Positions 8,853-24,448 of a stretch of DNA of 43,042 nucleotides are shown piece by piece. How positions within the stretch are numbered: the first letter of the stretch is position 1; each line of letters opens with the position of its first letter. Origin of the DNA: Bacteroidota bacterium (GTDB taxonomy: Bacteria; Bacteroidota; Bacteroidia; Chitinophagales; Chitinophagaceae); NCBI GenBank assembly GCA_005882975.1, contig VBAS01000088.1:48075-91116 (forward strand), in the 5' to 3' direction. Below the pieces are notes generated by a model. That model saw only the letters and a program-made list of their open reading frames with translations, did no database searches and was not told the DNA's origin. The position numbers and the translations under genes are program-made.

Positions 8853-10277
8853 TTATTTATCCCACCAGACACGAGTATTTAAATCATCGGTTCCACCATA
8901 TGGAAATGCAGAAACTGCGGCATTGTAATTAGTAGTATTGTTAGATCTTTCAATAGTTGGGTAACCTTCCCTTCTTGGTATCTTGTCACCATTTGCACCT
9001 GGCGCTGCAATTAATAAAGGATAACCTGTTCTTCTCCATTCAGCCCATGATTCATAACCATGTAAAAATAAATGTATCCATTTCTGAACAGCAATCTGCT
9101 TAATTGCATTTGCAGGATCGTATAACACTTTCGGCTGGGCAATATAGGTACTTGCACCTGTTGTGCTACCGGTCCATTGAAGTATTGAGTTTTGAATAGC
9201 AGATTCATAATTTGTTTTCGCCGTTGCATCACCACCTGTTATCCAACCCAATTTAGCAGCCTCAGCTTTTGCAAACAATGCTTCTGCATAAGTCACCAAA
9301 TATACCGGTGAATTTTGCAAACGAAGTTTATCGCCCAATAAGGAAAAGTTTGTTGGAGTAACGGTTGTCGTTAAGCCATAATCAAGTCCTACATAAGTGC
9401 CGGATAAAGGACCTGATGTAGCTTTATTTGCAAAAACCGGCAACCGTGGATCAGCCACAGATTGCATTGTATCAACCAATGGTTTACTAACAGCATACCA
9501 AAGCCTGCCCATGACATTCATTTGCGTGTACCAGAAATTTTCATTGTTCTTATCCAGTAAATGAGGATAAGCAAAATTGTCAGTGTTTGCCGTCATGATA
9601 CCATTGATAGATGCTTTGTTAAATTCGGCTGCCCCTTTAACTGCATCAACTTTTGAAAGACGAAGAGCCATTAACATGTGCACAGTGTTTCCAAATTTTT
9701 TCCACTTGGTCATGTCACCATTGTACATGATGTCATTCTTGATATTGCCAGTTACAATAGCAGCATTCGCTTCATCAAGCAAAGCGAAAAGACTATTGTA
9801 AATATCCTGTTGCTTGTCATATTTAGGAGTGAAATTATCCTGGCCTTTTAATGCTGTTGAATAAGGAATATCACCCCAGCGATCAGTTAAAAACCAAAAA
9901 ATATAAGCCTTTAAAATTTTAGCCGCGGCAATCTGGTTTACAACCGGTCCTTCATTGGCATCAAGAGTGGGAGAAGTAATAACTGTTTCCAGATCCATTA
10001 ATGGACCGGTATACCATCCATTAAAATTAAAGTTAATGGTAGTATATCTTGAATTATCCGTAAAAGAGGTATTAGATAAATGCTGGGGATAATGAACTCC
10101 AAAAGCCGAAGAACTTATATCAGGTAATGATCTTTCCGCACTTGCAATAAGCTGTGTACCTGATGCCTTTGTTGGCCTGTTCGGATCAACATTCATACTT
10201 CCGTCAAATTTTTGGCAACTACTCATCAACACTAATGTGGTGAGTGATATATATATTGATTTGTTTATTTTTTTCAT
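8853..10277 (-). CDS. SusD/RagB-family (SusD-like_2) outer-membrane lipoprotein
   Basis: A 474-residue nutrient-binding lipoprotein. The signal peptide ends in a lipobox with the acylated Cys at 21 (LMSSC/QKFDG). The mature start (NVDPNRPTKAS) and the C-terminal part (LPVFANKAT, YAEALFAKAEAAKLGW, ESWAEWRRTGYP) match the SusD-like_2 branch of the family. It should cap the neighbouring SusC-type barrel and capture the ligand at the cell surface. It follows the susC-like gene by 13 bases, so the two form an operon. No glycosidase or peptidase gene is directly attached, so the substrate cannot be inferred. Confidence 0.93.
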   Translation of the reverse strand: MKKINKSIYISLTTLVLMSSCQKFDGSMNVDPNRPTKASGTQLIASAERSLPDISSSAFGVHYPQHLSNTSFTDNSRYTTINFNFNGWYTGPLMDLETVITSPTLDANEGPVVNQIAAAKILKAYIFWFLTDRWGDIPYSTALKGQDNFTPKYDKQQDIYNSLFALLDEANAAIVTGNIKNDIMYNGDMTKWKKFGNTVHMLMALRLSKVDAVKGAAEFNKASINGIMTANTDNFAYPHLLDKNNENFWYTQMNVMGRLWYAVSKPLVDTMQSVADPRLPVFANKATSGPLSGTYVGLDYGLTTTVTPTNFSLLGDKLRLQNSPVYLVTYAEALFAKAEAAKLGWITGGDATAKTNYESAIQNSILQWTGSTTGASTYIAQPKVLYDPANAIKQIAVQKWIHLFLHGYESWAEWRRTGYPLLIAAPGANGDKIPRREGYPTIERSNNTTNYNAAVSAFPYGGTDDLNTRVWWDK

Positions 10278-10290
10278 AATGCTGTATATA

Positions 10291-13200
10291 TTAAAATGAA
10301 AAGTTTAAGCTTACGCCATAAGAACGGACAGTTTGAAACTCACCTTTTTCCAGCCAGCTAATAGAGCCGCTGTTATAGGATAATTCTGAAGGCTCTAATC
10401 CTTTTGGTGCTTTTTGCCAGATCATAGCCGGGTTGCGTGCTAAAAGAGCAATCTTTACAGATTTAAAAGGTGTTTTTGATAAAATATCTTTATCAAAAGT
10501 ATACCCGATACTAACTTCCCGCAATTTGATATAGGATGCATCAAAAAGCCATTCTTCATAGATACGGGTTCCGATTGTATTTCTAAAATATGACCTGGCA
10601 TCTACATAAGCAGTTACTTCCTGTCCTGCTGGTGAAATACCAGTTACTTTTACTCCACCTCCGCTTGCTATCGGATCCCTGACATTTGATCCCTTATCAT
10701 TTAAAGCGGCTGTCTCCGCTGCCTGGCCAGATTTTATTGCCAACATTTTAGTCCAGCTGAAAAACTGTCCACCTGATTGGAAATCTATCATAGCACCTAT
10801 GTCGATCTTCCATATTTTAAATGTGTTCAGGAAACCACCTGTAAAATCTGGCAATACACTTCCGAAATTATGATTGGTCTCAAACAGTGGAAGATTAGCG
10901 GCATCTAACTTTATCATTCCGGTTTTTGTATCACGCAAATATGCCTGTCCTACTAAGCTTCCAAAAGGCTCGTTAACAGTTGCATTTAAAAAGATAGGAA
11001 CACTTGAATAAGTATTATTATCTAACTGGTAAACATTAATGCCAGGATAAAGTTCTTTTACCATACTCTTGTTCCGCGCAAAATTTAAAGTGGTGGTCCA
11101 GGAAAAGAAATTCGATTGAAAAGGTTTGGCATTAAGAGATATCTCAAATCCTTTATTTTCTATTAACCCTGCATTTACTACTGTTGCGGAATAACCACTT
11201 GAACCGGGAACATCAAGCTGTATGATCTGATCTTCATTTTTTTGATGATACAAAGTAAAATCTACGCCTACCCTGTTATTCAAAAATCTTAACTCAATGC
11301 CTGTTTCAATTGATTTTCCAAAAGATGGTTTGATATTAGGATTTGTCAAAACATCAGGAACAGTAATTGGATTTATTGTAGCTGCCGCACCCGTATACGT
11401 TGTACCTACGCTAAAACTTGTTCCGGTTTGATAAGGAGGCAGATCACCACCTGCTATTGCATAGCTTGCCCTTATCTTACCATATGTTAACGGCTTCCAC
11501 TTTAATAACTCGCTAAATACAATGCTGGCAGATACCGATGGATAGTAATAAGAATTATTATTTACAGGCAAACTTGAGGATACATCATTTCTGATGGTTC
11601 CATCAATAAAGTAGATATCCTTATAACCGAAGGAAGCCATTCCATAAAAACTTCTTACTTCTTTACGGCGAATGAAGGATGAAATAGTGGGCCGATCTTT
11701 TGAGCCGGCAAGACTATAAAATGCAGGACTTACAAGACCGCCAACTGTATTGCCACTTACAGAGGTGAAGTCAACTGTATATTTATTTGCCCCGACATTC
11801 AAATTCATCGATATGTCGCCGAATGCTTTATTATACTGACCTAAAAATTCATAGTTAAATTCTTTACTCTGGTATTTTCCTACAGAATAACCTTCATCAA
11901 GTCTGCCACCTAAAGCTTCTTTATGAGAAACATTTTGTGTGTACATGTCGGCTCTGAGGAAACCGCTTAATTTCAGTCCTGGCAAAAGCTGGTAACTAAT
12001 ATTTACGTCACCAAAAACCCGATCTCTGCTATCATCATTACTATTAGCATAAGCATCAAAATAAGGATTGTTCCAATCACTCGGACGGTTATTGGTAATA
12101 AGGCCGGCTGTAGTTGGATTTACATTCCAATTCATTATAGTACCATCATAGTAACGATAATTTTTCAATCTTTCCATATCTAAATTTCTCTGAAACCATT
12201 GTACCTGGCCGGTTGCAGTTCCCTGGTAACCTTGCGACGGTCGTGTAGCCTTATTATTACTAAATGTTGCATTTACACCAACCGTCAATTTTTTTGTGAT
12301 ATTTAATGAAGTACTTAAACCTAAATTATTTCTTTTTAAAGAAGTGCCGGGCATTACACCTTTTATATAAGCATTATTGTAACTCAGTCTAAAGTCCATA
12401 TTCTCACTGCCTCCTGTAACTGAAATATTGTTATTAAGATTATAACCCTTTTCGAAATAATCTTCAACATTAGTTGGATGAGGTACAAACGGTGTAAGCT
12501 TTCCAAACTCAGGATCCTGCGGATAGAAACTGTAATACATGCGAACAGGAGTTCCATCCATTTTAGGTCCCCAACTTTCATCATTACCATTTACGAATTT
12601 ATCACCGTTTGCAAGCGTTCTAAAAACCTGGTCGTTTCCAACACCATAAATATTTTGAAGTGGCAAAAAATTTCCGGTTTTTTCCATCAGAAACGCAGAG
12701 CTATATTGAACATCTACTTTTTTAGGTCCTTTTTTTCCCTTCCTTGTTGTAATGATGATAACTCCATACTGCCCTCTTAATCCATATAGTGCTGAAGCCG
12801 CAGGACCTTTTAAAACATTTATGGATTCAACATCATCCGGATTAATATCCTGAGCGATATTACCGAGATCAGGTCCATTGCCGTTTGATGAACCAAAGTT
12901 TGCATTTGAAATTGGCGTACCATCTACTACAATAAGAGCCTGATCATTTCCATTTAAAGAATTCACCCCACGTATTTTAATTTTTTGGGTACCTCCCAAA
13001 CTTGCGCCAGATGAGCCTACCACCTGCACGCCGGCGATTTTACCTGATAAAGAACCAAGCACATTTTGCTCCTTTGTTAAAGTAAGATTCTCACCTTTTA
13101 CTTGTTGCGTAGAATAGCCTACGGCACGTTCACTTCGTTTAATGCCTAGCGCAGTTACTACAACCTCAGTCAAAGAACCTTTGGCTCCCAAACTTACATT

Positions 13201-13476
13201 ATAAGAGTTACTGCTACCTACCGCAACTTCTTGTGACTGTCTGTCAACGTGAGAAAAAATCAACACTGGATTTGCTCCCGTTACTGTAATGGTAAATTCT
13301 CCTTTTTCATTGGTTGTTGTTCCACTGGACGTTCCTTTTTGAAGAACAGATACGAATGATAATGGAATTCCAGATTCATCGCTAACAATTCCGGTTATTT
13401 GCCGGCTTTGACTAAATGCGAGATAAGGCATAGAAAGAAAAAAAATGGACAATACAAAAAGCAGTAGTTTCTTCAT
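10291..13476 (-). CDS. SusC/RagA-family TonB-linked outer-membrane transporter
   Basis: A 1061-residue TonB-dependent channel. I chose the ATG at 13476 because it opens a typical signal peptide (MKKLLLFVLSIFFLSMPYLA, then FSQ); the frame is open further upstream to 13590 but that part is not signal-like. In order: a carboxypeptidase-like beta-sandwich (QITGIVSDESGIPLSF), the SusC-typical EVVVTALGIKRSER stretch, the plug (KIKIRGVNSLNGNDQAL, then VVDGTPI), and a long barrel ending in Phe (YGVSLNFSF), the C-terminal signal for barrel insertion. It imports a ligand across the outer membrane with its SusD partner, 13 bases downstream, using energy from TonB/ExbBD encoded elsewhere. Confidence 0.94.
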   Translation of the reverse strand: MKKLLLFVLSIFFLSMPYLAFSQSRQITGIVSDESGIPLSFVSVLQKGTSSGTTTNEKGEFTITVTGANPVLIFSHVDRQSQEVAVGSSNSYNVSLGAKGSLTEVVVTALGIKRSERAVGYSTQQVKGENLTLTKEQNVLGSLSGKIAGVQVVGSSGASLGGTQKIKIRGVNSLNGNDQALIVVDGTPISNANFGSSNGNGPDLGNIAQDINPDDVESINVLKGPAASALYGLRGQYGVIIITTRKGKKGPKKVDVQYSSAFLMEKTGNFLPLQNIYGVGNDQVFRTLANGDKFVNGNDESWGPKMDGTPVRMYYSFYPQDPEFGKLTPFVPHPTNVEDYFEKGYNLNNNISVTGGSENMDFRLSYNNAYIKGVMPGTSLKRNNLGLSTSLNITKKLTVGVNATFSNNKATRPSQGYQGTATGQVQWFQRNLDMERLKNYRYYDGTIMNWNVNPTTAGLITNNRPSDWNNPYFDAYANSNDDSRDRVFGDVNISYQLLPGLKLSGFLRADMYTQNVSHKEALGGRLDEGYSVGKYQSKEFNYEFLGQYNKAFGDISMNLNVGANKYTVDFTSVSGNTVGGLVSPAFYSLAGSKDRPTISSFIRRKEVRSFYGMASFGYKDIYFIDGTIRNDVSSSLPVNNNSYYYPSVSASIVFSELLKWKPLTYGKIRASYAIAGGDLPPYQTGTSFSVGTTYTGAAATINPITVPDVLTNPNIKPSFGKSIETGIELRFLNNRVGVDFTLYHQKNEDQIIQLDVPGSSGYSATVVNAGLIENKGFEISLNAKPFQSNFFSWTTTLNFARNKSMVKELYPGINVYQLDNNTYSSVPIFLNATVNEPFGSLVGQAYLRDTKTGMIKLDAANLPLFETNHNFGSVLPDFTGGFLNTFKIWKIDIGAMIDFQSGGQFFSWTKMLAIKSGQAAETAALNDKGSNVRDPIASGGGVKVTGISPAGQEVTAYVDARSYFRNTIGTRIYEEWLFDASYIKLREVSIGYTFDKDILSKTPFKSVKIALLARNPAMIWQKAPKGLEPSELSYNSGSISWLEKGEFQTVRSYGVSLNFSF

Positions 13477-13740
13477 AAAAGCATATTTATTAGTTATAAA
13501 GCAAAATGAAAAGTCTTGGTGTATTTTGGTAGGAATAAGGTAAAAGGCGTCACGCAAAATCCGGCAAAAAATACACACAAAACAGCACATGCATGCATAA
13601 AGGGTAAGTTTTTTTTAATAATTTTTATTCTTTTTAAAGAAAAACGCAAAAACGCAAAACCCAAATACCCTTAACTTTATTGAAGAGATATGGAATTTAT
13701 AGAATGATAAAAGGAGTCAATGGTAATAACCATGTGCAAA

Positions 13741-13769
13741 AAACAAGGGGGCAGTTTTACTGCCCCTTT
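13741..13769 (-). terminator. Terminator after the broken sorbosone-dehydrogenase gene
   Basis: On the minus strand the hairpin AAGGGGCAGT / ACTGCCCCCTT is followed by a T-rich run (GTTTTTT). It begins a few bases past the stop at 13776 and separates that gene from the susC-like gene. Confidence 0.8.
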
Positions 13770-13775
13770 ATAATT

Positions 13776-14768
13776 CTAATTCTGTACTACTATTTTTTTT
13801 GTTGTCGTACCTGTTTCATTTTCGATCTTTAATAAATACAATCCGTTCTTTAAATAGTCGATATTTATTTGTTGAATTGTTTTTCCGGTGATCTGTTGTT
13901 GTTTTACTAATCTGCCGCTTGCATCATAGAATTTTAATGTCGCAGTTTTTGAATTGGTGCGAACATTTAAAATATCTTTTACGGGATTAGGATAAACATT
14001 TACACCCATTTCAATTACAGAATTATCCTTTTTGGTGATAAACGTTGCCCGTGCTGCAGCGCCATCTGCAATTACTAATTGTGGCCTGTTTGATGCAGCT
14101 TCTTTTGAATTAAATATAACCTGGTTATTTGAAGAATTCCCATTGATCAATTTTATAGTAACTGAACTGATGCCTGTACTTCTTAAACCCGCAATAAGCG
14201 ATGTCAGATCCCATTGATAGTATTGATTTGTCGTGCTGTTAATATTTACTGTAGCAAGGATCGCTGGCTGTGCAGCAGGTTTATTATTCCCCGTGATCGT
14301 GTTCTCCAGCCATGAAGTATTCGTTACATTATGTGCTTCGACTGCAATAGATGGAGTTTGGGTGTTGTTCAATCTTCCATTCACCCTTAAAATAGCAGAA
14401 GACACACTTGCACTGATAGTTGAGATATCAAATTTCAAAAATGTCTCATAGCTTTTATTTGGCGATGAATTTGTTTGATCAATAAGCGAAATAGCGGAGC
14501 CAAAGTTGTTGTTTGCATTTTTGCCACCGTTCACATAAGCATCTGCTATAGGATCAAGTGTAAGAATTGTTCCAGTAATAAAATTAGCTGTGTAGGTAAC
14601 ATCATTAACCGGTGTTGCAAATGTTTGCGATTGAGTTCCTCCCTGGCTCCAATTAATGAATGTATAATTCCCCTGCGGCGATGGCGCCCCGATAGTACGT
14701 AACATACCTTCAACACTTGTGACTGTTAATGGTGCAGTAAATGGTTGCCCGTCCAGTGTTATTTGCAA
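13776..14768 (-). CDS. C-terminal fragment: DNRLRE/CBM96-like module plus type IX secretion sorting domain
   Basis: This 330-residue frame is the detached C-terminus of the protein encoded at 14786-16480. It has no ATG of its own at the front; 14768 is a TTG lying inside a stretch (LNTNPQGL, then QITLDGQPF) that normally follows the end of the upstream part. Residues about 70-235 look like a DNRLRE/CBM96-type carbohydrate-binding beta-sandwich (DAYVNGGKNANNNFGS, TFLKFDIS, NRPQLVI). Residues about 250-330 are a Por-type sorting domain (VNVYPNPVKD, LYLLKIENETG, KKIVVQN), the signal for type IX export and surface anchoring. It is probably not translated alone. Confidence 0.7.
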   Translation of the reverse strand: MQITLDGQPFTAPLTVTSVEGMLRTIGAPSPQGNYTFINWSQGGTQSQTFATPVNDVTYTANFITGTILTLDPIADAYVNGGKNANNNFGSAISLIDQTNSSPNKSYETFLKFDISTISASVSSAILRVNGRLNNTQTPSIAVEAHNVTNTSWLENTITGNNKPAAQPAILATVNINSTTNQYYQWDLTSLIAGLRSTGISSVTIKLINGNSSNNQVIFNSKEAASNRPQLVIADGAAARATFITKKDNSVIEMGVNVYPNPVKDILNVRTNSKTATLKFYDASGRLVKQQQITGKTIQQINIDYLKNGLYLLKIENETGTTTKKIVVQN

Positions 14769-14785
14769 GCCTTGCGGATTGGTGT

Positions 14786-16480
14786 TTAAGTAAAGGTTGT
14801 ATCCCTTGCACCCTGCGCATCTGTCACAACAAGATAAAGACGATAGAATACATTGGTAGAGGCCTCACCGCTATTGGGAATTGAAAAAGATCCGCTTGTT
14901 ACACCATCAGGAGCTGTAGGACCCGGATGCGTATGCGCATCATGATGAAATATTACATACCATTCAAATGCTGAAGCAGGAAGATTCCCCTGTTCAGGAT
15001 CTGTTCCTGTTCCCGAAAAATTAATCACATCTCCGCCTGCATAAGTTGCTCCGGCACCCGGGGTATTTATTGTTGCAGTTGGTAATTGATTGGGAGAAGT
15101 TACAGTTAATACTGCATTGTTACTTGTTGCGCTGCCTGCACTATTGCTTACAACTACAGAATAGTTTCCTGCATCACCTGGTGAAACGACAGGAATAGTA
15201 TAGGTTGAATTAGTAGCACCACTAATATTGTTTGTATTTTTTCTCCATTGATAACTCAACGGTTGTAAACCATTGGCTGTAACACTAAAACTTGCAGCGT
15301 TTCCTTCAGCAACGCTAATACTTTGCGGTTGTGTGGTAATGACAGGTGCATTAGAACCCGTGAAAGTAATTTTATACACAGCGCTATTTGCCCTTGAAAG
15401 AAAATAAAGATTTCCATCTGGCCCTGTAGTTATACCTACCGGACTGCCGGCAATTGATGATGCAAAATTTGTTCTTGTTGCAGTTGTGCCGGATAAAGTA
15501 AGCATATCGATCCAGTTATTACAAAAGTCTAAAAAGAAATATCTGCCAGTGTATTGAGAAGGATAATTACTTGAAGTTGGATTAAAAAAAGTGCCACCGG
15601 TTATTGCACAACCAAAACCAATACCGCTGCCATGCATATAAGTGTAAATTGGATTGGCAAAGGCAGGATTGTTACTTACACCTTCTGCAGTTGGCCAACC
15701 ATAATTCTTCCCACCAGTTGTACAATCATTAACTTCTTCCCATGTGTTTTCCCCTACATCATTTACAAAAATGCGACCGGTTCCTGGTTGAATTGAAAGT
15801 GTGTAAGGGTTACGCATACCATATTCCCAAACTCTTTGTCTTTGTGCAGTTCCGGTGGTAAAGGGATTTCCGGAGGGCACACTGCCATCTGAATTTATCC
15901 GCAAAATTTTTCCAAGATAAGTATCTAAATTTTGTGAATTAGCACTGTTTGCATTTTCACCAACCCCCACATACAATTTTCCATCCGGTCCAAACTGTAT
16001 TGTTCCGCCGTTATGATTGGTAGCGCTGCTTAATGGATCAAGATTTAGCACTACAGATTCACTGCCTGCTATAATTGTATTGCCATTCATTGTGAACCTG
16101 CTAATACGATTATTTGACGCAGAAGAAAGTGTGTAATAAAGATAAATAAAATGATTAGTTGCAAAATTTGGATCAAAAGCAATTCCAAGTAAACCTCTTT
16201 CTCCTGACGAATTTACACTTAGTGTGATCGCAGGTGTAGCAAGTAGCGTCCCATTTTCGATTATTCTCAATGCGCCGGTTTGTTGTGCAACAAATAAACG
16301 ACCATCGGGTGCAAATTCCATTACTGTTGGATTGCTGATACCATTTGCAACAAGCACTTGTTGAAAGCCGGTCGGATATGTTTGTGCATCACTATATACA
16401 GAAGCAAAAAGAGAAGCAATTGTAAATACCAGGCTCAAAGCATTGATAGTGCTTTGAGATTTGTGAAGAACTTTACTCAT
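14786..16480 (-). CDS. Secreted sorbosone/glucose-dehydrogenase-like beta-propeller with Ig domain, frame-broken at the C-terminus
   Basis: A 564-residue secreted protein. A signal peptide (residues 1-33, ending SDAQ) leads into a six-bladed propeller of the glucose/sorbosone dehydrogenase type (about 35-375). The marks are GERGLLGIAFDPNF, NHNGGTIQFGPDGKLYV, YLGKILRIN and WEYGMRNPY. Such enzymes oxidise sugars with PQQ, but many members are uncharacterised. An Ig-like domain (377-460) and an Ig/cadherin-like region follow. The frame then stops after DAQGARDTTFT, and the continuation is in another frame from about 14789. The truncated product lacks the type IX sorting signal, so if exported it would not be surface-anchored by that route. 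Confidence 0.85.
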   Translation of the reverse strand: MSKVLHKSQSTINALSLVFTIASLFASVYSDAQTYPTGFQQVLVANGISNPTVMEFAPDGRLFVAQQTGALRIIENGTLLATPAITLSVNSSGERGLLGIAFDPNFATNHFIYLYYTLSSASNNRISRFTMNGNTIIAGSESVVLNLDPLSSATNHNGGTIQFGPDGKLYVGVGENANSANSQNLDTYLGKILRINSDGSVPSGNPFTTGTAQRQRVWEYGMRNPYTLSIQPGTGRIFVNDVGENTWEEVNDCTTGGKNYGWPTAEGVSNNPAFANPIYTYMHGSGIGFGCAITGGTFFNPTSSNYPSQYTGRYFFLDFCNNWIDMLTLSGTTATRTNFASSIAGSPVGITTGPDGNLYFLSRANSAVYKITFTGSNAPVITTQPQSISVAEGNAASFSVTANGLQPLSYQWRKNTNNISGATNSTYTIPVVSPGDAGNYSVVVSNSAGSATSNNAVLTVTSPNQLPTATINTPGAGATYAGGDVINFSGTGTDPEQGNLPASAFEWYVIFHHDAHTHPGPTAPDGVTSGSFSIPNSGEASTNVFYRLYLVVTDAQGARDTTFT

Positions 16481-20025: not shown

Positions 20026-20742
20026 TTATAACGGTTTTACTTTCCCCGAGCCTGAAATACTTGTGCTGATCAACGGGTGCCCACGATAATAAACAGAACC
20101 ACTTCCGCTAATTGTTGCATCAAGTGACTGCGATAAATTTACTTGCATATCACCAGAACCACTGATGTGAGTTGTTGCCTTTTCAGCAGCTACTCCATCC
20201 ATTATCAGTTTACCATTGCCACTAATTCTCAGATCTTCATTCTTAGCTGCACCTGTCTGCACATTAATATCGCCAGAGCCACTGATATCAGCGTTTATTT
20301 TATCAGTTACCGTTGCAGACTGTACTGTAATATTTCCTGTGCCACTTATAGCAATATCCAGGTTTGCACTATTTATATTTCCGATCACTGCCAGGTCTCC
20401 CGTGCCGCTGAGATGTAGATAGTCTGCAGTTGGTGCACTGATATTAACCGTTATTTCTTCATTTGATTTTATACGTACGCCATCTCTCACTTTTACTAAC
20501 AAGTGCCCATTTGATTTAGTGACTTGAATTACATCGAGTATGTTCCGTTGTGCCGTTATTTCAACCTTATAAACCGGATCAATTTTATAATAGATCTTAC
20601 CACCGATACTTGCTGATACACCGGAAAAATCTATGATGTTCCGGGTTTCAGTTTGCAGGTCTCCCTCTCCCACTACTTTTTTGCAGGAAGAAGCTGTAAG
20701 TAAAGCTGCGGCTGCTGCTAACATAAAAACTAGTTTTTTCAT
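20026..20742 (-). CDS. GIN-domain (DUF2807) lipoprotein, putative adhesin head
   Basis: A 238-residue lipoprotein with a lipobox ending at C20 (LTASSC/KK). The mature part is one right-handed beta-helix-like GIN/DUF2807 domain, recognised by the recurring ISGSGDI-type turns (ISGTGNI, ISGSGDI, ISGNGKL, ISGSGSV, ISGSGKV). Such proteins are abundant in Bacteroidota; the exact role is unknown and an adhesin or envelope-stress part is only suggested. A promoter-like site at 20870-20899 matches one in front of the nearby ECF sigma gene, with identical spacing. The gene may therefore belong to that sigma factor's regulon although it is a separate transcript. Confidence 0.88.
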   Translation of the reverse strand: MKKLVFMLAAAAALLTASSCKKVVGEGDLQTETRNIIDFSGVSASIGGKIYYKIDPVYKVEITAQRNILDVIQVTKSNGHLLVKVRDGVRIKSNEEITVNISAPTADYLHLSGTGDLAVIGNINSANLDIAISGTGNITVQSATVTDKINADISGSGDINVQTGAAKNEDLRISGNGKLIMDGVAAEKATTHISGSGDMQVNLSQSLDATISGSGSVYYRGHPLISTSISGSGKVKPL

Positions 20743-20869
20743 TTTATTTTGATTTCTGCTTTGATAATTAAAAATTCAATTTTATACTACAGGATTTATC
20801 AGCCAATTTGATACCTACTCAATCCTTTTTTTAAGATCGGAGATATATCACCCGTATTTTATCCTATAG

Positions 20870-20899
20870 TATAACAACTAAAGAAAGACCTACCCCTAT
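20870..20899 (-). promoter_or_regulatory. Predicted ECF-sigma promoter of the GIN-domain gene
   Basis: Read on the minus strand: ATAGGGGTA (20899-20891), 11 bases, then AGTTGTTATA (20879-20870). Both blocks and the spacing are identical to the site in front of the ECF sigma gene at 24419-24448, while the 11-base spacers differ, which argues for two conserved -35/-10-like elements. The -10-like end lies 127 bases upstream of the GIN-domain ATG. Confidence 0.7.
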
Positions 20900-20952
20900 G
20901 CGTTAGCATTTTTTTTAGAAGAAATTGATTCCGGCATTCCATCCAAACCAGC

Positions 20953-20996
20953 CAGTAACCTTATGGCTGAATTTCAGTAACCTTATGGCTGAATTT
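20953..20996. repeat. Exact 22-base tandem duplication
   Basis: Two head-to-tail identical copies (20953-20974 and 20975-20996) of a 22-base unit beginning CAGTAACC and ending GCTGAATTT. It lies in the last codons of the STN barrel gene. As 22 is not a multiple of three, it shifts the frame and brings in the stop at 20961-20963. Confidence 0.97.
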
Positions 20997-22766
20997 TGTG
21001 GTATTATAGTGCGAAGGAGGGACAGGGAAACGATAGCCGCCAAAAGCCACATCCTGATCAGTTACGTAAACTGAATAAGAAGGACCCCCAAACAGGGAAA
21101 TATATTTTCCAAGCTTGATATTGAAGTTGAGATCGAACCTGTTTAAAAGATTGAGATAGTCCCACGAACCGAGATAGAGGTATTGACAGCTTAATTCAGG
21201 ATTAATAGATAAGGTTTTCTTTTTATTCAATGACAGTTCACTGCCAAGACCATATCCAAAAGAATAAACTTTGTTACTGTCGCTAAGATTTACACCCGCC
21301 CTGAGTATGCTGTACAATTTTGAATTGCCCGTTTTAAAAGCGGCATTCACATTTTCAACCTCATTAGCAGAAAAACTGAGTTTATGATAACCTTTTATAA
21401 TAATATTGATCAAACCAATGCTGTATCCTGCTGATGTATCGGCAATATTAATAAGCCCGATCTGCAGCCCTTTTAATTTTTTTGCATAATTAACAACACC
21501 GGCTATTTGTACACCATTCATTTCTCTATTACTTATGTTAGAGACACCCGCTATTTGCACCCCACTTGCTTTTTCTTTGGAGAAATTTCCAATACCAGCA
21601 ACCTGGAAACCTTTTACACTATCTGATACATGATTATATATTCCGGCTGCCTGGAAACCGTGCATTTTTCCAGTCACAAAATTATTAATACCGGCAGCCT
21701 GGAAACCATATACATTATCCTGAACAAGGTTATTTATACCAGCCACCTGGAAACCTTTTACTTCACCACCTACTGAATTAAATAAACCGGCGGCCTGGAA
21801 ATATTTTACATCTTTTTGATCAATATTAAATAAACCACCAATTTCAAAACCATTTGTTCCTGCCGTGTAACCGCCGAATATGTTCAATGAAAAATTATTG
21901 ATCACCTGTGAATTCAACTGGCCATGAGTACTTACGCCCGGCACAAGTGAAATTTGGAAAGGACGTGTAGTAAAAAAATTCTTTAAATTAAGACTCTGCA
22001 CTTTTTGTTTACCTGAAAGCAAAAATCTTCCTACACCGGTTTGTTGCACTTTGATGGAATCATTGGAAACAGGTAACTGCTGTTCTGTAGTATCTGTGGG
22101 CACTTGTAATGAGTCCGGAGCCAGGTAATCTTCTGGTTTTATCACCGTATTATTTTCCGGAATTTCAACCGGCATCATTGTAATAGACAATTGCTGATCA
22201 AACCGCGGTTGAATTTTTATTGTGGTATCTTCATAAAATTCTTTACTTACTGTCAATTCAGCGGTACTTGTTTTACTGCTTTTGAGTTTTATCTTGAAAA
22301 AACCATCTTCATTGGTTAAAGCCGAAGCAAGCATCTTTTTTTCATAGATACTGGCTTCACTGATTGCAGCGCCTGATTGTTCATCGTACACAAAACCACT
22401 TACTGAATAAATTTTTTCTTCTGTTATTCCCTTCTGTGTCACCAGTGTCATCCTGATCGGGGCTTTACGTATGATGATATAGTTACCACTCTCTCTGAAT
22501 TCGTAAGTGTTATTAAACAATTCGGTGAGAATTTCTTTTACCGTTTTATTCGATGCCCTGAAGCTAACAAGACTGTCTTTCTTAACAATGCTGGAATTAT
22601 AAGAGAAATAAAAATCGCCTTTGTTGCTTAATATCTCAAGCACATTCTCCAGCCGCTGCCTGTTTACATCAAGCGAAATGTTTTTCTGCAGAATAGCCTG
22701 GCTATAAGATGCAGAACTGATAAAAATAAAAAGAATGGTAAAATAAAAAACCGTACTAAGCTTCAT
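20961..22766 (-). CDS. STN-domain outer-membrane protein with LA_2272-type surface repeats, C-terminus altered by a duplication
   Basis: A 601-residue envelope protein, third gene of the sigma/FecR operon (15 bases after the FecR stop). A signal peptide (1-22) is followed by an STN (secretin/TonB short) domain (about 24-107, with LENVLEILSNKGDFYFSYNS) and a carboxypeptidase-like sandwich (about 124-190). A long array of about 20-residue repeats (GFQVAGINN, GVQIAGVSN, GLQIGLIN) then leads into a C-terminal barrel. No TonB-receptor plug is visible. The actual frame ends KVTEIQP. Removing one copy of the 22-base duplication restores KVTGWFGWNAGINFF, a proper barrel end with a terminal Phe, and moves the stop to 20915. 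Barrel assembly is therefore probably damaged. STN plus FecR suggests a signalling role. Confidence 0.87.
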   Translation of the reverse strand: MKLSTVFYFTILFIFISSASYSQAILQKNISLDVNRQRLENVLEILSNKGDFYFSYNSSIVKKDSLVSFRASNKTVKEILTELFNNTYEFRESGNYIIIRKAPIRMTLVTQKGITEEKIYSVSGFVYDEQSGAAISEASIYEKKMLASALTNEDGFFKIKLKSSKTSTAELTVSKEFYEDTTIKIQPRFDQQLSITMMPVEIPENNTVIKPEDYLAPDSLQVPTDTTEQQLPVSNDSIKVQQTGVGRFLLSGKQKVQSLNLKNFFTTRPFQISLVPGVSTHGQLNSQVINNFSLNIFGGYTAGTNGFEIGGLFNIDQKDVKYFQAAGLFNSVGGEVKGFQVAGINNLVQDNVYGFQAAGINNFVTGKMHGFQAAGIYNHVSDSVKGFQVAGIGNFSKEKASGVQIAGVSNISNREMNGVQIAGVVNYAKKLKGLQIGLINIADTSAGYSIGLINIIIKGYHKLSFSANEVENVNAAFKTGNSKLYSILRAGVNLSDSNKVYSFGYGLGSELSLNKKKTLSINPELSCQYLYLGSWDYLNLLNRFDLNFNIKLGKYISLFGGPSYSVYVTDQDVAFGGYRFPVPPSHYNTTKFSHKVTEIQP

Positions 22767-22781
22767 GACTATAAATCTGGG

Positions 22782-23723
22782 TTATTGTAAAATGATCTGT
22801 CCGTCTTCTTTTTTGATAACTGTTATATCAAGTGTGAGGTGTATGACTTCTAATACTTTTTCAAGGGATTCATTATAAAAAGTAGTTGTGATCTGCATAT
22901 TATTCAATTCTTTTCTGCCAATGATTATTTTGGTACCATAAGCTTCGTTCAGCACCTGTACCAGTTTCCATAGAGGAGTATCATCGCAAACAAATTCTTT
23001 TGTACGATAATAATTGTATAGCTTATCAGTCACTTTTTGTTTGGTAGCGACACTGTCGTTTGTATTGATCATTATTTTTTCACCAGGATTTAATTCAACT
23101 GTCTTCCCTGCTCTTGTCACTCGTACAATACCGGTCTCCACAACAACTTCTGTATTCCCATTTTCATTTTTTATATTAAAAGATGTTCCTACTACTGTTA
23201 CCTGTACATCATTTACTGAAATGATAAAGGGTTTTTTCTTATCAGGCGCCACATTAAAGAACGCTTCACCTTTCAAAGCAATAGCTCTTGTATTGCCCTT
23301 GAATTTAGAAGGATAAGTAATAGTTGATCTTTTATTTAATGTAATTACTGAGCCATCCGACAACGTATCGATCAAAACATTTTGCCCGGTTTGAGCAACC
23401 ATTTCTTTTGGCGCAGTATTTTTATTAACCAACATAAATAAAGTAATGCCAAGGCCGGTAATCAAAATGATCGATGCGGCGATCCTAAGCCAGGAAAAAC
23501 GTGGTTTTAAAATTTTAGCAGGCACATGTCCTTCGGTGATCCTGTTCTGAAATCTTTCCCATGCCTTATTCACATCAACATTTGATTCCGAAGCAAGTGC
23601 TTTACTCTGATCCCAGATCTTTTTAAACTGGTTGTAATATTCCTGGTGTGTTTCATTCCCCTTCATCCATTCTGTCACCGATTGTTCTTCGTCAGGAGAT
23701 GCTTCACCAAGCAGGTGTTTCAC
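22782..23723 (-). CDS. FecR-family anti-sigma factor
   Basis: A membrane-bound regulator that holds the ECF sigma factor and relays a signal from the periplasm. The N-terminal cytoplasmic part (HLLGEASPDEEQSV) is of the DUF4880/FecR type. A single membrane helix (ASIILITGLGITLFMLV) follows, then the periplasmic FecR domain (ITLNKRSTITYPSKFKG, AFFNVAPDKKKPF, FIISV) and a C-terminal STN-contacting DUF4974 domain (TTFYNESLEKVLEVI). The start given is a GTG. It truncates the conserved N-terminus, and no ATG, GTG or TTG lies upstream in frame. An ATT at 23777, overlapping the sigma stop codon by one base, would add 18 residues (INTTKLEQNFYHIDDDLL) and fits the family better. Confidence 0.9.
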   Translation of the reverse strand: MKHLLGEASPDEEQSVTEWMKGNETHQEYYNQFKKIWDQSKALASESNVDVNKAWERFQNRITEGHVPAKILKPRFSWLRIAASIILITGLGITLFMLVNKNTAPKEMVAQTGQNVLIDTLSDGSVITLNKRSTITYPSKFKGNTRAIALKGEAFFNVAPDKKKPFIISVNDVQVTVVGTSFNIKNENGNTEVVVETGIVRVTRAGKTVELNPGEKIMINTNDSVATKQKVTDKLYNYYRTKEFVCDDTPLWKLVQVLNEAYGTKIIIGRKELNNMQITTTFYNESLEKVLEVIHLTLDITVIKKEDGQIILQ

Positions 23724-23772
23724 CAGCAGGTCATCATCAATATGGTAAAAATTTTGTTCCAGCTTAGTGGTA

Positions 23773-24360
23773 TTAATTATGAATAAATAATAAAATAAAT
23801 ATCAGGAAGTCAGCCAATTTCACCCGCAACAATTTTAATGCTTTGCTCATTTGGTTCTCCACCGTTTTTATTGAAATACCAAGCTTATCAGCGATCTCCC
23901 GGTATTTCAATTCATCAAAGCGGCTCATTTGAAAAACAGTTCGACATTGTTCCGGCAATTCATTTAGTGCCGCACGAATTTTCTTTTCCAGTTCCCCGGC
24001 CATTATTTTTTTTGCAGGATGTTCCACTTCATTTTTCATATTATAAGCAACACTCAACTGGTGATCTGATCTCACTTTCTGATGTTTAATATAATTAAGG
24101 CTTTCATTGTGCACTGCACGGTATAAATAAGAAGAAACAGACCCTGTTAATGAAAGATTTTCTCCACGGAAATTTCTACTATTTCTTTCCCAAAGCTTAA
24201 AAAACACCTGTTGCACTATTTCTTCCGCCTGTATCTCATCCTTTAGTATGGTAAAAGCATAGGCATGCAGTCGTTTAAAATATGTTTTAAACATCTGTTC
24301 AAAGGATGCTTCATTCCTTTGTGCCAGTAATGTGCCAATGGATTCGTTGTCCAGTTCCAT
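23773..24360 (-). CDS. ECF-type RNA polymerase sigma factor, FecI/Bacteroidota family
   Basis: A 195-residue sigma-70 factor of the extracytoplasmic type. Region 2 (SFEQMFKTYFKRLHAYAF, EIQAEEIVQQVFFKLWE) and region 4 (LNELPEQCRTVFQMSRFDEL, KYREIADKLGISIKTVENQM) are both clear. I start at ATG 24360 (MELDNESIGTLL); the frame is open to a TTG at 24405, but that would place the start close to the promoter element. The ATT proposed for FecR overlaps its stop. It is the first gene of a three-gene operon with FecR and the STN barrel. A matching ECF-like promoter 58 bases upstream suggests it drives its own operon. Confidence 0.92.
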   Translation of the reverse strand: MELDNESIGTLLAQRNEASFEQMFKTYFKRLHAYAFTILKDEIQAEEIVQQVFFKLWERNSRNFRGENLSLTGSVSSYLYRAVHNESLNYIKHQKVRSDHQLSVAYNMKNEVEHPAKKIMAGELEKKIRAALNELPEQCRTVFQMSRFDELKYREIADKLGISIKTVENQMSKALKLLRVKLADFLIFILLFIHN

Positions 24361-24418
24361 TCCTTGTGCCCGGTATAACGGTTCTATTAATAAAGCTGCG
24401 CCCAAAAATACTTTTTAA

Positions 24419-24448
24419 TATAACAACTGAAGGAGCATTTACCCCTAT
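24419..24448 (-). promoter_or_regulatory. Predicted ECF-sigma promoter of the sigma/FecR/STN operon
   Basis: Minus strand: ATAGGGGTA (24448-24440), an 11-base spacer, then AGTTGTTATA (24428-24419), 58 bases upstream of the sigma ATG. The same two blocks with the same spacing recur at 20870-20899. Autoregulation is inferred from position, not shown. Confidence 0.7.

Follow-up and report, generated by a model that had tools for sequence, protein, structure and literature searches.

A 43,042-nt stretch of the genome of a bacterium of the Chitinophagaceae (Bacteroidota; GCA_005882975.1, contig VBAS01000088.1), referred to here as the window, carries two copies of a two-block element that are very probably promoters read by the extracytoplasmic function (ECF) sigma factor encoded at positions 23773-24405. 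The copies, ATAGGGGTA-N11-AGTTGTTATA, are located on the minus strand exactly where the initial annotation had placed them, with an 11-nt spacer and the same base at all 19 block positions. Promoter 1 (24419-24448; -35-like ATAGGGGTA at 24440-24448, -10-like AGTTGTTATA at 24419-24428) precedes an operon for the sigma factor, a FecR-type anti-sigma factor and a protein with an STN domain. Promoter 2 (20870-20899) consists of the same two blocks and lies behind the STN gene, where a TonB-type receptor gene is next in relatives and a GIN-domain gene is next in the window.

The looser core GGGGT-N15-TGTY was found in the window at the same two places only, and 100 dinucleotide-preserving shuffles gave no match to the motif with up to 3 mismatches allowed. 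The genome of origin (G000; 4,763,382 bases, a draft assembly of 465 contigs with 91.97% completeness and 6.29% contamination) contained two exact copies and none with one or two mismatches. At three mismatches there were two sites, which are regarded as noise because the reversed control gave 4 matches. The motif is thus not scattered over the genome, as the initial annotation had expected of a genuine regulon. Chance as the origin of the pair was rejected, since the shuffles were empty, the motif is unique to the pair in this genome and its spacing is fixed among orthologues; no further sites were seen in either the genome scan or the core scan of the window.

The products of the adjoining genes, all on the minus strand, have the following domains. 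The sigma factor (P0001; 23773-24405, open frame) contains Sigma70_r2 and Sigma70_r4_2 and scores 168 bits against TIGR02985 (cutoff 126.4), which makes it a member of the ECF sigma family. Adjoining it, as judged by Pfam and synteny, is the anti-sigma gene (P0002; 22782-23774, open frame) with FecR and FecR_C domains, as in Fec-type systems. The putative transducer P0003 (20961-22766) combines STN, CarbopepD_reg_2 and LA_2272 repeats, and its C-terminus is frameshifted in this genome. The last gene, P0004 (20026-20742), begins 127 nt from promoter 2 and encodes a GIN-domain (DUF2807, PF10988) protein, scoring 119.6 bits against a gathering score of 24.2, with a lipobox-like TASSC recognized by eye.

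Conservation of the element was examined with orthologues of P0003 as anchors. A P0003 homologue (E <= 1e-20) is present in 136 of 394 genomes of the family. The best 80 of 289 relatives were fetched, giving 82 loci together with the window and its close relative L035; 76 regions upstream of the sigma gene and 79 regions behind the STN gene were usable. TAGGGGT was the most enriched 7-mer, found in 52 of the 76 sigma upstream regions, compared to 1.8 for random stretches drawn from these loci. The spacing proved rigid: GGGTR-N14-TGTY occurred in 57 of these regions, N13 and N15 in none, and any other spacing from 5 to 25 in at most 2. Behind the STN gene the N14 form was found in 35 of 79 regions, with a minor N20 class of 5. 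A site score of at least 13 of 19 was reached in 61/76 and 49/79 regions, respectively, and in 39 of 44 loci the two sites shared the same final core base. The alignment of upstream regions proposed in the initial annotation therefore bears out the conservation of the motif. The elements have two blocks, fixed spacing, a location near gene starts and an occurrence common to the sigma gene and its targets, which are the features of ECF-type promoters; the sigma gene of the Pedobacter-type loci described below is the exception.

The motif also follows the operon across genomes. RTAGGGGTA-N12-GTTGTY, without mismatch, was present in 95 of the 394 genomes (reversed control, 28), that is, in 87 of the 136 genomes with a P0003 homologue versus 8 of the 258 without one (Fisher p = 8e-42, only indicative, as kinship among the sequences and genomes means that the counts and this value overstate independence). 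A sigma homologue (E <= 1e-25) is present in four of these eight. Position and co-occurrence point to this very sigma factor as the probable reader of the motif.

Sites away from the operon widen the set of candidate targets. Allowing one mismatch, a scan covering 40 genomes gave 74 matches (reversed control, 17). Of the 20 off-operon sites fetched first, 10 precede P0005, a 210-residue outer-membrane-type protein scoring below the family cutoff of PF13505, and one precedes a receptor-like protein. Homologues of P0005 occur in 17 of the 40 genomes. In unlinked orthologues with at least 48% identity the core motif was found in 14 of 14 cases, ending 13-24 nt before the start codon, while among distant homologues it was kept in 0 of 4 (L238 scores 13 of 19 without the core). 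A second set, chosen among the matches listed, comprised 40 exact sites lying apart from the listed STN matches. Twenty-eight of them lead into genes for sigma factors (8), receptors (11), LA_2272 proteins (6), GIN-domain proteins (2) or a P0005-type protein (1), and one more leads into a receptor according to BLAST; the other 11 belong to none of these groups. The eight sigma cases represent the sigma gene's own promoter in genomes with no listed STN match nearby, and both GIN genes (L248, L257) are located on contigs other than that of the sigma cluster.

Additional arrangements were observed at single loci. Four copies of the motif lie within ~6 kb of one cluster at L170 (genome G042) and three within ~2 kb of one cluster at L167 (G132), as if in both cases each successive gene had its own copy. 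At L267 and L271, secreted-looking proteins of 137-138 aa are encoded 129 nt behind exact copies.

A different arrangement was found in 14 Pedobacter-type loci (range L135-L152), which come from Pedobacter, Arcticibacter, Daejeonella, Mucilaginibacter and two others, including L141, labelled Flavihumibacter soli. All 14 sigma upstream regions score below 13, and ten of the loci have, at most 150 nt upstream of the sigma gene, a TAnnTTTG box, the consensus of sigma-A promoters (PMC7366714). In 13 of the 14 a single copy of the strict GGGGT-N15-TGTY form lies upstream of the sigma gene, 19-22 nt before the start of an LA_2272-repeat gene, and in 12 loci a GIN gene follows this motif-preceded gene. 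As far as can be read from the loci, the link between sigma factor, motif and GIN/LA_2272 genes is common to both locus kinds and autoregulation is not; the feedback wiring would differ between the groups because the Pedobacter-type sigma gene appears to be under a sigma-A box rather than its own motif. Together with the unlinked GIN genes and the motif-bearing loci in which GIN follows STN directly (four of six, see below), these 12 loci support the inference of the initial annotation that the GIN gene is a target, within a regulon that is wider in relatives.

Taken over all loci, sequence comparison shows that Chitinophagaceae have kept a two-block element with invariant spacing at the sigma operon and at a small group of envelope genes, some of them unlinked, and that in Pedobacter-type loci this element stands before a repeat-protein gene that is mostly followed by GIN. 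This comparison argues strongly for the assignment of the elements as promoters; the specificity of the sigma factor, signalling through FecR and STN, the inducer and the function of the targets we infer.

The distances given in the initial annotation, 58 nt to the sigma gene and 127 nt to the GIN gene, are correct for the ATG codons chosen. The sigma gene probably starts at TTG 24403-24405, only 13 nt from the motif. The motif lies 57-62 nt from the aligned ATG in most loci, and the place aligned to the ATG at 24360 lacks an ATG in 25 of the 61 regions with a motif; the codon at 24360 is therefore an unlikely start. The first in-frame start is a TTG or GTG 11-19 nt past the motif in 52 of these 61 regions, and none of 35 distinct extensions starting with TTG/GTG exactly 45 nt upstream has a stop in frame 0, whereas 28 and 15 have one in the two alternative frames. 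Weighing against the TTG start, pairwise differences per codon position (0.60, 0.52, 0.59) give no clear coding signal, and such a TTG/GTG start is absent from 7 of the 61 regions. ECF sigma factors usually start transcription at a set position downstream of promoters with characteristic -35/-10 distances. If this is so here, the sigma mRNA would have a leader of only a few nt. Leaderless mRNAs account for 5.5% of the mRNAs examined in Flavobacterium psychrophilum (PMC9723704).

A deletion probably accounts for the 127 nt between promoter 2 and the GIN gene. Of 79 loci, 43 have a TonB-receptor gene no more than 1.5 kb behind STN; the motif was located at most 250 nt upstream of this gene in 38 of the 43 (23-44 nt in 34 of the 38). 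This gene encodes CarboxypepD_reg and Plug domains, the latter at 24.6 bits (cutoff 23.9), with no STN match. The alignment between the window and L035 runs to 20866 and resumes at 20795, with 2.3 kb extra in L035. Likewise, in a genome of the same genus (G264, locus L155) a normal STN end, the motif and the start of the receptor gene are followed by the GIN-side sequence 2.3 kb further on. The scar itself (20769-20866, minus strand), as aligned to L035 and L155, comprises ~70 unmatched nt (20796-20865) and ~27 nt matching the receptor gene end (20769-20795). By this comparison, the receptor gene is ancestral between promoter 2 and the GIN gene, and it has been removed from the window genome by a deletion of roughly 2.3 kb. 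Relocation within the genome was rejected, as nothing beyond a 36% paralogue and a weaker partial match was found. No P0005-type gene was found in G000, G264 or G027 in the search of 40 genomes. The loss of the receptor gene beside the operon and the failure to find a P0005-type gene would explain why only two sites are left in this genome.

A second lesion, a 22-bp perfect tandem duplication (20953-20996, minus strand), affects the 3' end of the STN gene and is absent from G264 (L155) and L035. Through the frameshift that it causes, the last predicted beta-strand is lost: the conserved GWFGWNAGINFF-type STN end, equivalent to the last strand predicted for the orthologue from L075, is missing. 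The input side of the system may therefore be damaged in this genome, with both promoters intact. With such an STN gene the circuit could be silent, constitutively on or rewired, or the damage could be an assembly error.

These lesions bear on the reading that the second site is a decaying relic, the regulon no longer working in this organism and GIN being driven otherwise, which we consider somewhat unlikely. The scar and the duplication, both absent from same-genus G264 and from L035, speak for it, as does the failure to find a P0005-type gene in G000, although none was found in G264 or G027 either. Yet the two promoters agree at all block positions, the sigma and FecR frames are open, and the lesions could be errors of a fragmented, partly contaminated draft. 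GIN directly behind STN, with no receptor gene between them, was found at six loci (the window, L089, L092, L094, L100 and L121), and the motif is kept at three others besides the window (L089, L094 and L100).

Very little credence can be given to the idea that a transcription factor binds the motif and activates these genes from sigma-A promoters. A TAnnTTTG box at 24403-24410 does adjoin promoter 1, overlapping the TTG start of the sigma gene, but no such box was found on the strand of promoter 2 within 20740-20960. Moreover, the element is asymmetric, rigid in spacing, close to start codons and associated with the sigma operon across genomes, and its cores lie 14-15 nt apart, in the layout of -35/-10 elements. 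There is also little chance that another ECF sigma factor of the genome reads the motif, the local sigma gene being merely one target. Several such factors, with possibly overlapping regulons, have been described in one Bacteroidota species (PMC9723704), but the preference of the motif for genomes with this operon tells against another ECF factor, and the Pedobacter-type motif lies beside an orthologous sigma gene that itself lacks it, which fits a local one.

Several observations weigh against the local sigma factor as the reader of both promoters. From the sequence, sigma-A could also transcribe the sigma gene via the box at 24403-24410. The motif was missing at five of the 43 receptor genes and before GIN at L092 and L121, two of the six STN-GIN loci, and the 127-nt GIN leader of the window is longer than those of the three other motif-bearing STN-GIN loci (56, 74 and 77 nt). 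Fifteen of the 76 sigma upstream regions score below 13, a score that random 280-nt stretches of the loci reach in 125 of 1640 cases, some overlapping true sites. Finally, 49 of the 136 genomes with a P0003 homologue have no exact site, and 9 of the 20 off-operon sites fetched first precede mixed genes or lie inside frames.

If the local sigma factor does read the motif, it would be held by the FecR-like anti-sigma factor, whose C-terminal domain would be contacted in the periplasm by the STN domain of P0003, an outer-membrane protein. Once freed by a change at the outer membrane, the sigma factor would raise expression of its own operon in positive feedback and transcribe genes for the TonB-type receptor, the GIN-domain protein, LA_2272-repeat proteins and the small outer-membrane protein.

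No Plug was detected in P0003 by Pfam at E <= 0.001, so that it does not unite STN, Plug and barrel as a Fec-type TonB-dependent receptor does. The AlphaFold model of the L075 orthologue has a mean pLDDT of 78.3 and a pTM of 0.47, domain placement being uncertain. With the model of the STN protein as query, Foldseek returned nothing below E 0.001. In the VIA-align comparison, which uses the same candidates, barely tests regions outside 118-201 and 457-610 and often yields middling Z values, the STN part is followed by a transthyretin-like domain resembling SusC N-terminal extensions (9hfj, Z 12.4) and a low-confidence linker, the repeat region is best matched by phage tailspikes (6f7d, Z 12.5, rmsd 5.2), and the C-terminus is a barrel of 8 long strands like those of OprF, NspA and OmpA (Z 13.5, 12.7 and 12.1). 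Eight is the strand number of OmpA-type barrels. The model suggests that P0003 is an STN transducer other than a TonB receptor, and tentatively that the LA_2272 repeats form a beta-helix.

The system resembles FecI-FecR-FecA (Fec of Escherichia coli, Fox of Pseudomonas) in that the ECF sigma gene stands beside one for a FecR/FecR_C anti-sigma factor, the STN domain is part of an outer-membrane-type protein and, in relatives, a TonB receptor gene follows the motif, as in the Fec-type cell-surface signalling pathway (PMC11637429). Unlike in that pathway, the STN protein lacks a Pfam Plug and has a small modelled C-terminal barrel, while the receptor gene has a Plug and no STN match. The sigma gene, moreover, bears its own motif, whereas fecIR and hasI are stated not to be autoregulated (PMC9249621). 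With chances somewhat short of even, we propose a widespread Bacteroidota branch of surface signalling in which the STN transducer was split off the TonB receptor. In it, the state of the envelope or surface would be reported via FecR by an outer-membrane protein that has no Plug and combines STN, a SusC-type N-terminal domain, LA_2272 repeats possibly forming a beta-helix and a small barrel. The sigma factor of this protein would control a self-contained regulon that also includes additional LA_2272 proteins, GIN proteins and a receptor; the sigma gene would be autoregulated in Chitinophagaceae and have a sigma-A box instead in Pedobacter-type loci.

ECF sigma factors are common in Bacteroidota and few of their promoters are known, according to a paper on Bacteroides thetaiotaomicron (PMC7366714); this 2020 paper states that a motif was known for EcfO of Bacteroides fragilis and for none of the B. 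thetaiotaomicron ECF factors. TIGR02985, the Bacteroidota ECF subfamily to which P0001 belongs by score, is a family name that gives no promoter or regulon. A close parallel is SM6 of F. psychrophilum, a predicted Bacteroidota ECF promoter class that also precedes a sigma/anti-sigma pair (PMC9723704). By its description SM6 differs in having a CGT box and several type IX secretion targets, compared to a -10 core TTGTY and receptor, GIN and repeat-protein targets here. P0004 resembles GIN/DUF2807 (Toastrack) proteins in both its PF10988 match and its similarity to solved structures (3pet, 3jx8, 4opw and others); one DUF2807 protein, PGN_1547 of Porphyromonas gingivalis, is a reported adhesin (PMC10949514). 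ECF control of a DUF2807 gene was not found in excerpts of the open-licence PMC literature, nor was this motif or regulon in titles or abstracts of open-licence PMC papers.

Promoter motif, targets and likely regulator could be read from sequence alone across two locus kinds, and uncharacterized GIN-domain, LA_2272-repeat and STN proteins gain a common regulatory context. The system is directly testable because it is carried by cultured genera, e.g., Flavihumibacter, Niastella, Terrimonas and Pedobacter. Elsewhere in the window (8853-16480), SusD-like and SusC-like (Plug) genes are followed by two others, one encoding a CBM96 protein that bears a type IX sorting tail, the other a glucose/sorbosone dehydrogenase that includes an Ig domain.

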